This document shows, piece after piece, positions 29,597 to 30,777 of a stretch of DNA of 64,000 nucleotides. Below the pieces are notes generated by a model. That model made no database searches. It saw only the letters and a program-made list of their open reading frames with translations, and was not told the DNA's origin. The stretch is from Rhodanobacter sp. L36 (GTDB lineage: Bacteria; Pseudomonadota; Gammaproteobacteria; Xanthomonadales; Rhodanobacteraceae): positions 382,402-446,401 of the forward strand of contig NZ_LMUV01000003.1 of NCBI RefSeq assembly GCF_009765755.1. Direction: 5' to 3'. A program made the position numbers and the translations under genes. The stretch's first letter is position 1. The number at the start of each line of letters is the position of its first letter.

Positions 29597-29884
29597 CTAG
29601 CCTGGAAGCGGCGGTTGATCGTGATCGGGGTTTACAGGACGCGGTGCATCATCGTCCTCGTCCTGTTCCTCTTCTTCATGGCCAGGTCCTTGCGTGTGAG
29701 GAAGCTGCATCGGCTTGTGGCCGAACTCCTTGAAGAGCAGGGCACTTTCACCGGTGGCCACCGCCGCCTTGAAGACTTCGGATGCCTGCGCATCCACCAG
29801 TACTTCCACGAGCTCCTCGGGAGTTGCGTGACGCAAAGCGGCGTTCTGGCCGATGGATTCCAGCAAATCGATGGTGTCTGACAT
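29597..29884 (-). CDS. Putative split-borosin precursor peptide
   Basis: A 95-residue acidic protein, start fixed by GGGGGA just before the ATG at 29884. Residues 3-55 look like the borosin-binding domain of stand-alone precursors such as Shewanella SonA: IDLLESIGQNAALRHA, then PEELVEVLVDAQ, then AVATGESALL and FKEFG, spaced like the SonA helices. No enzyme motif or signal peptide is present. After residue 55 comes HKPMQLPHTQGPG, then a run of Glu/Asp (69-79) and a proline-rich end (RPVNPDHDQPPLPG). Where the N-methylated core lies is unclear; the hydrophobic stretch SALLFKEFGHKPMQL (47-61) is one possibility, the C-terminal tail another. It follows the methyltransferase gene after 65 bases. 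The assignment rests on sequence pattern and neighbourhood. Confidence 0.78.
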   Translation of the reverse strand: MSDTIDLLESIGQNAALRHATPEELVEVLVDAQASEVFKAAVATGESALLFKEFGHKPMQLPHTQGPGHEEEEQDEDDDAPRPVNPDHDQPPLPG

Positions 29885-29949
29885 GTTTCCCCCTGTTGTC
29901 CTGATCCTCGGGCAAGTGCCCAAGGTGTGTTCCAGGCCGACGTTGTACG

Positions 29950-30777
29950 TCAAGCCATGGCTGTTTCCTCGTCGAGCGCTTTCAACCTTGCACGAATGGC
30001 GAGATTTTGTTTCAACGCCATGGCAGGCGGCAACACCACCGTTTCTTCCGTGGTGATTGGTGTATTCGGCAAATCGCTCAACCTGACGTGGCGAATGCGC
30101 GGCTGGTCGATGGGCAGCGTGGCGCCACGATAGATGATCACTTCATGGTCGAGCGGATAATCCTCGCTCAGCACGTCCACCAATACCTGCCGATACGCAG
30201 AGCCGGTCTCGAATCGCGCCAGCGACAAGTCGCCCACCAGACCCACCTGCCACAGCACCAGATAACTCGTGGGGTCGATACGGCGCTCGTAGAAAAGCAG
30301 TTGGCTTGCTTCGAAATGCTGGCAGCCGAATCGACCCGGATCGATGCCCAGATCGGCGTAGAGGCAATCCTCAGCGGAAATGCCAGGCTCCATGTGGGCC
30401 TTGAAGCCTTCCGCGCGCGCAACTTCGATGGCCTTGTGCGGCGACCAGGCGAAGATGCCGGGATGGCCGTAGAAAACCCCGCAAACTTTCTTGCCGGCGC
30501 GAACCTCGGCCATGATCAGGTCGACCCATTGGCGGTAGGTCTTCATCCGCGACTTGCCTTCGGCGTAGTAGGGCTGAAGGCTGCGCACATCCGTATGCAT
30601 ACGGCCCAGCCACAGCTCCACGATGCTGTCGGAAAGTCCGGCAAATACCACGTCTGCCTGCTCTATGTGGCTGCGCGCCAGTGGCGTCAAGTGCGAACCA
30701 AGCGTCATGCCCAGGCCAACACAGGCCAGGCTGCCGCGTCGGGCATGGTTCGTTGGCAAGGAATCGGGTGTGAGCAT
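29950..30777 (-). CDS. Split-borosin-type peptide backbone N-methyltransferase
   Basis: A 275-residue tetrapyrrole-methylase-fold SAM methyltransferase that closely resembles SonM, the stand-alone N-methyltransferase of Shewanella split borosins, and the catalytic domain of OphMA. Diagnostic stretches are GSLACVGLGMTLG (SAM loop, 15-27), the catalytic Tyr/Arg segment YYAEGKSRMKTY (Y70, Y71, R77, Y81), VFYGHPGIFAW (Y103), HMEPGISAEDCLYADLGIDP and PLDHEVIIY. Cobalamin-pathway TP-methylases lack this Tyr/Arg set, and no other tetrapyrrole gene is nearby. It should place methyl groups on backbone amides of the small protein encoded next. The start is uncertain: 30777 (ATG) lacks a clear ribosome-binding site, and a GTG at 30849 is possible. 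Confidence 0.88.
   Translation of the reverse strand: MLTPDSLPTNHARRGSLACVGLGMTLGSHLTPLARSHIEQADVVFAGLSDSIVELWLGRMHTDVRSLQPYYAEGKSRMKTYRQWVDLIMAEVRAGKKVCGVFYGHPGIFAWSPHKAIEVARAEGFKAHMEPGISAEDCLYADLGIDPGRFGCQHFEASQLLFYERRIDPTSYLVLWQVGLVGDLSLARFETGSAYRQVLVDVLSEDYPLDHEVIIYRGATLPIDQPRIRHVRLSDLPNTPITTEETVVLPPAMALKQNLAIRARLKALDEETAMA

Follow-up and report, generated by a model that had tools for sequence, protein, structure and literature searches.

The window, by which we mean the whole 64,000-nucleotide stretch of Rhodanobacter sp. L36 DNA that was analyzed, carries on its minus strand what is very probably a type IV-like split borosin operon. It consists of three genes: a SonM-like α-N-methyltransferase (positions 29950 through 30777), a small, separately encoded precursor (29597 through 29884), and a TPR-GGDEF sensor (27807 through 29585). 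An earlier, sequence-only reading of this DNA had proposed a methyltransferase followed by a gene for a 95-residue protein; both frames are present on the minus strand, and the third gene was absent from that two-gene reading. Sequence analysis establishes which families the three genes belong to, shows the catalytic residues of both the enzyme and the cyclase, and reveals a conserved linkage that extends to one-polypeptide fusions. A 2023 paper reportedly presents the final product of a split borosin pathway from Shewanella; the usual association of these systems with a sensor hints at the purpose of the peptides.

The methyltransferase gene encodes 275 residues from an ATG start and was assigned from its reading frame and its homology to SonM. 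SonM and SonA form the type IV split borosin pair of Shewanella oneidensis (PMC8429565), which has in common with our locus a separate enzyme and precursor, the same active-site residues, and a leader formed by a borosin-binding domain (BBD). A search of PDB sequences returned SonM as the top match (E = 5e-77, residues 15 through 266 covered), with 49.6% identity over 254 columns, in line with the close resemblance noted in the sequence-only reading. The fused fungal borosins OphMA, dbOphMA, and MroMA rank after SonM (∼1e-48). Their methyltransferase domain is homologous, but their core is fused to the enzyme, whereas in the window it is separate. In the alignment, SonM residues Y58, R67, Y71, and Y93, which were mutated in the work of PMC8429565, correspond to Y71, R77, Y81, and Y103 of the window enzyme. 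All four are identical across 135 aligned homologue rows (105 of them distinct), in agreement with the borosin set of catalytic Tyr and Arg residues noted earlier.

A competing assignment, a cobalamin- or siroheme-type methylase beside an unrelated small protein, has a shared domain in its favor, as Pfam recognizes PF00590 (TP_methylase) and nothing else in the enzyme. The scores point away from it: none of the eight NCBIfam families listed comes near its cut-off, the top model (YabN) reaching 35.5 against 525 and the cobalamin and siroheme models 11.6 to 18.1 bits against 92.9 to 400. No cobalamin methylase is found among the 25 PDB sequences listed for the enzyme. In a tree of 45 rows, from which the intended outgroup rows L192, L195, and L001 were left out, six CysG/CobJ rows lie on one side (support 100/99) and the window and SonM clades on the other, so that the enzyme stands apart from these methylases; clustering with them was a result that, for the sequence-only reading, would have refuted the proposal. 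The window enzyme belongs to a clade of 20 rows (95/92) and SonM to a separate clade of 5 rows (100/98); branching among these two clades and the remaining borosin rows is without support. With borosin active-site residues and a conserved precursor added to the scores and the tree, the methylase assignment is, as far as sequence can show, rejected as wildly improbable. By its sequence, the enzyme is a stand-alone borosin-type α-N-methyltransferase homologous to SonM and OphM. It is expected by homology to be a dimer, and its probable activity is methylation of the precursor backbone.

The precursor gene lies 65 bp beyond the methyltransferase gene, has by eye a strong Shine-Dalgarno-like sequence before its ATG start, and encodes 95 residues. 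Profiles and a predicted model define an N-terminal BBD of five predicted helices (approximately residues 1 through 55; 29720 through 29884), followed by a linker/core and an acidic, proline-rich tail (residues 56 through 95; 29597 through 29719, stop codon included) that together hold 11 Asp/Glu and 9 Pro. Searched singly, the precursor has no match in Pfam or NCBIfam and only two chance matches in the PDB (E 0.5), and SonA was not found. Single searches with 72 precursors gave scattered weak matches, at most 9 of 72 to Secretin_N and 4 of 72 to Nif11. A profile of the 72, run against 177,635 PDB sequences, lists below E 1 only SonA chains (best 3.6e-5; the next match has E 1.2). We distinguish class A precursors, which resemble that of the window, from class B precursors, which resemble that of a paralogue in the same genome and many of which have Cys-Cys in the core region. 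The class B profile alone (22 sequences) reaches SonA (9.6e-7), whereas with the class A profile alone (33 sequences) SonA is not among the matches up to E 10, the best PDB match being 2xyk (E 0.035). The two profiles are clearly related (2.5e-20); because class A alone misses SonA, the link between the window precursor and SonA runs through class B.

The model of the precursor has five helices within residues 2 through 54 and a disordered remainder (mean pLDDT 67). Its sole Foldseek match in the PDB is SonA in the SonM complex, with a poor E-value of 6.5. A second structural comparison superposes it on SonA with Z 7.0 (2.5 Å, 53 of 54 residues), a value that is not rare for a helical bundle and, according to the tool's own warning, may mean merely a common arrangement. 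The SonA-like character that the sequence-only reading saw in this protein is retained for the five-helix model and for the wider-family profile, and is lost for the single protein and for class A. Even so, its identity as an adjacent, separately encoded BBD-type borosin precursor is supported and, together with the SonM homology, the active-site residues, and the tree, sustains the earlier assignment of the locus as a split borosin. Points on the other side are the failure of class A to reach SonA, structural matches that may be generic, a tail that contains prolines and is unlike SonA's hydrophobic core, and the three operon genes themselves, among which there is no protease or exporter (the flanking genes are only partly annotated). 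A search of the same genome for pepsin-like peptidases (PF00026) such as shewasin gave no match, but its controls were equally silent.

According to PMC8429565, SonA has a five-helix BBD (residues 1 through 53), a linker (54 through 61), and a core (62 through 71) methylated at L63 and I65. Profile alignment to SonA suggests a candidate methylation zone at approximately residues 59 through 68 of the window precursor. In the mechanism that we propose, the SonM-like enzyme would bind the precursor by its helical, N-terminal BBD and carry out SAM-dependent N-methylation of one or a few backbone amides just past that domain. The precursor is longer than SonA (95 versus 71 residues), and its core is not SonA-like; class A tails have a fairly conserved stretch, P-Q/H-x-Q-x-P-G-H-E/D. 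Because the tail differs from the SonA core, it is plausible, as far as sequence can indicate, that the product of this locus is new. Elsewhere among the precursors, that of Tahibacter aquaticus (L125:7364-7783) has a tail with GGDKDEEEIR three times, resembling a multi-core precursor, and the precursor gene occurs in tandem near-copies at L185:1010-1762 and L187:971-1971, the third gene at L185 being a GGDEF remnant.

The third gene starts 11 bp past the precursor stop, again with a Shine-Dalgarno-like sequence by eye, and encodes 592 residues; a promoter and terminator scan was near chance level. Pfam and a predicted model (mean pLDDT 86) describe a helical TPR superhelix over approximately residues 35 through 345, one strong hydrophobic segment at about 391 through 410, and a GGDEF domain at 424 through 579. 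The N terminus looks signal-like by eye but is under the hydropathy cut that the segment at 391 through 410 passed; in the putative membrane orientation, the TPR part would be periplasmic. The GGDEF domain has GGEEF and an RxxD I-site (RAAD), and by these motifs the protein would be an active diguanylate cyclase making c-di-GMP. The sensor region has no match among PDB sequences up to E 1. For the whole model, the 50 Foldseek matches listed show GGDEF-domain proteins, so the TPR part is visible only in a second structural comparison. There, GGDEF structures come first, and the superhelix itself is matched best by the degron-bound TPR receptor APPBP2 (8jal; Z 25.6, rmsd 3.8 Å, 316 residues). 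This likeness is compatible with peptide binding and is no proof of it, because TPR folds are common. All 33 aligned sensors have cysteines at the positions of C188 and C218, which perhaps form a disulfide.

To define the conservation of the three genes we used the best 80 of 150 relatives as named loci, taking the best enzyme frame per locus; some genomes are represented twice. The precursor follows the enzyme in 78 of the 80, and the other two loci end within 124 bp of the enzyme frame. A sensor is present in 73 of 80, with GGDEF in the same frame in 70 and a frame cut by the contig end in three (L054, L109, and L123). As the contig ends before a sensor could appear at L106, L108, and L119, 73 of the 77 loci with room have one. 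The remaining four (L111, L113, L116, and L121) have enzyme and precursor and no sensor despite room. In the genome of the window, which holds 22 GGDEF domains, the sensor region has just two homologues, one behind each of the genome's two borosin pairs. The second of these complete operons (L051:5731-9085; G000:C4) has a precursor (6805 through 7071) that carries the core-like motif VCCMMLP twice. Within class A (51 loci), mean identities are 81% for the enzyme, 66% for GGDEF, 62% for the BBD, 53% for the sensor, and 30% for the tail; sensor and precursor diverge faster than enzyme and GGDEF.

The same association holds across the family. With a threshold of E 1e-15 for each, enzyme and sensor occur together in 157 of 233 genomes, 70 have neither, one (G081) has a sensor only, and five have an enzyme only, giving the enzyme in 162 and the sensor in 158. 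The five genomes counted as enzyme only (genus g5), and G339 from another family, encode sensor, GGDEF, and methyltransferase in a single polypeptide after a BBD precursor gene (frames L216 through L221, ∼830 to 890 residues each; three confirmed with Pfam). Because such TPR-GGDEF-methyltransferase fusions exist, there is strong evidence that enzyme and sensor serve a common pathway. In many genomes sensors outnumber enzymes (five and one, respectively, in G200), and precursor and sensor occur at L211, L213, and L215 with no enzyme in the examined stretch. Among 38 sensor frames in 20 regions picked because they hold extra sensors, many of them tandem copies, 18 have a precursor of their own alongside, a count in which one precursor is cut by a region edge and one split sensor gene supplies two frames; the expectation of a separate precursor for each extra sensor did not hold. 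The four sensorless loci with room, the surplus sensors, and the 20 of 38 sensor frames lacking a precursor all count against the operon reading.

The sequence-only reading had expected a new lineage, but a rare one is not supported: besides its frequency in the family, the enzyme occurs in 204 of 398 genomes from the order, a sample that includes the family, and in 15 of 398 sampled from the phylum, among them the genome of the window and two others of the family. At all 14 listed places outside the family (L135 through L148), precursors were recognized in 3 by profile and in 11 by eye, some of them weak. Eight of these places have a sensor with GGDEF, three have neither sensor type (L137, L144, and L148), and in three a TPR hybrid histidine kinase with a receiver replaces the cyclase behind the borosin pair (L145:1264-4116, L146:1251-4499, and L147:1283-4528). 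L148 belongs to another class of the same phylum; its 1177-residue frame (3843 through 7373) has a borosin-type methyltransferase domain, and a profile search found no sensor or BBD frame behind it. A 545-residue frame at L223:2330-3964 has two borosin-type methyltransferase domains in tandem, and a Dyella-like operon lies on the contig of L059, whose label is Candidatus Eremiobacteraeota, perhaps through a binning error.

The arrangement extends to the reference system itself. The genus that includes a genome with an enzyme 100% identical to SonM has the enzyme in 112 of 129 genomes. We examined 20 of its listed places, in 18 genomes, and found the precursor in all 20 by eye (18 by profile) and sensor and GGDEF in one frame in 17; they are in two frames at L171 and L183, and L185 has the GGDEF remnant only. 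At L168, the locus with the enzyme identical to SonM, a TPR-GGDEF gene stands directly behind SonA.

The third gene would be a membrane sensor, a c-di-GMP maker by its motifs, that is tied to the enzyme-precursor system and through which the modified peptide, or the precursor, may act. Tentatively, we favor peptide-to-c-di-GMP signaling, a possible reading in which the released methylated core reaches the periplasm, binds the TPR part of its cognate cyclase, and raises or lowers c-di-GMP, with phosphorelay as the output in some lineages. The linkage of sensors to enzyme-precursor pairs, the sensor-enzyme fusions, the exchange of the cyclase for a hybrid histidine kinase, the precursor-sensor pairs with no enzyme alongside, and the likeness of the superhelix to a degron-bound receptor, its top match outside the GGDEF structures, all agree with it. 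So does the covariation of the parts. In 80 loci with one precursor each, a comparison whose pairs are not independent and for which we claim no significance, BBD and sensor distances, once corrected for those of enzyme and GGDEF, still correlate at 0.40, compared with 0.07 in the GGDEF control. The tail, which is the supposed ligand part, correlates weakly with the sensor in the same comparison (0.20 versus 0.11), and this tells against a released ligand, as do an operon whose three genes encode neither exporter nor peptidase, the tandem and orphan sensors with no precursor of their own, the general protein-binding nature of TPR repeats, and the putative character of the periplasmic placement. 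That the methylated peptide is the ligand of the cognate sensor is, for these reasons, a rather speculative proposal. We are equally guarded about its extension to the whole clade, from Shewanella to Rhodanobacter, in which split borosins would be signaling peptides read by cognate membrane TPR receptors and relayed into c-di-GMP or, after an output swap, into a phosphorelay.

The exporter-free operon would also suit a cytoplasmic coupling in which the cyclase is regulated at the inner membrane face by the enzyme-precursor complex itself instead of by a peptide set free from it, the TPR part responding to some other signal. The fusions place the methyltransferase directly after GGDEF, and as no domain lies between them the two would be on the same side of the membrane. 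The precursor BBD is nevertheless tracked better by the sensor half than by the GGDEF half, and we think this coupling unlikely. Operon linkage alone would suffice if the cyclase merely set the timing of peptide making or use (for example, in surface life) with no contact between them, and orphan and extra sensors fit such co-regulation; fused sensor-enzyme polypeptides do not, nor does the near absence of the sensor from the 71 genomes of the family that lack the enzyme (1 has it), and we regard co-regulation as conceivable but doubtful. Signaling by the peptide, the reading we favor, may have a purely functional analogy in the RRNPP regulators of Gram-positive bacteria, which are cytoplasmic TPR proteins that sense unmodified peptides. 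In both, a small peptide gene is associated with a sensor of TPR type; they differ in that the window system combines a membrane cyclase with a probably modified peptide.

The conserved third gene, the enzyme fusions, and the swapped outputs lead to a testable proposal, namely that a dedicated sensor is the target or the partner of the peptides. If it is true, a RiPP class would be linked to second-messenger signaling in common soil and water bacteria, and many candidate peptide-receptor pairs would be available for comparison. If, further, the peptides are the ligands, backbone methylation would yield a first messenger that a diguanylate cyclase reads directly. Split borosins as such are already known and, according to PMC8429565, none of their pathways had yet been tied to a final product as of 2021. 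The word GGDEF is absent from the main text of that paper; some borosin-GGDEF association is already in print, since the legend to Figure 1 of PMC11395268, a borosin architecture figure, explains a GGDEF label. A full-text literature search returned no borosin report naming Xanthomonadales, Rhodanobacter, or diguanylate. In the parts of the borosin literature that were searched, we found neither the TPR sensor as a part shared from Shewanella to Rhodanobacter nor the sensor-enzyme fusion as functional evidence or the histidine kinase swap.

Two neighbors of the operon lie on the plus strand of the window. The first (26623 through 27780), convergent with the operon, encodes a GntG-type PLP aldolase or β-eliminating lyase with a Tat-signal match just below the cut-off. 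The second (23559 through 26564) encodes a further GGDEF protein (GGDEF at G000:C9:408453-408938) in which LWIGT-type repeats are visible by eye.
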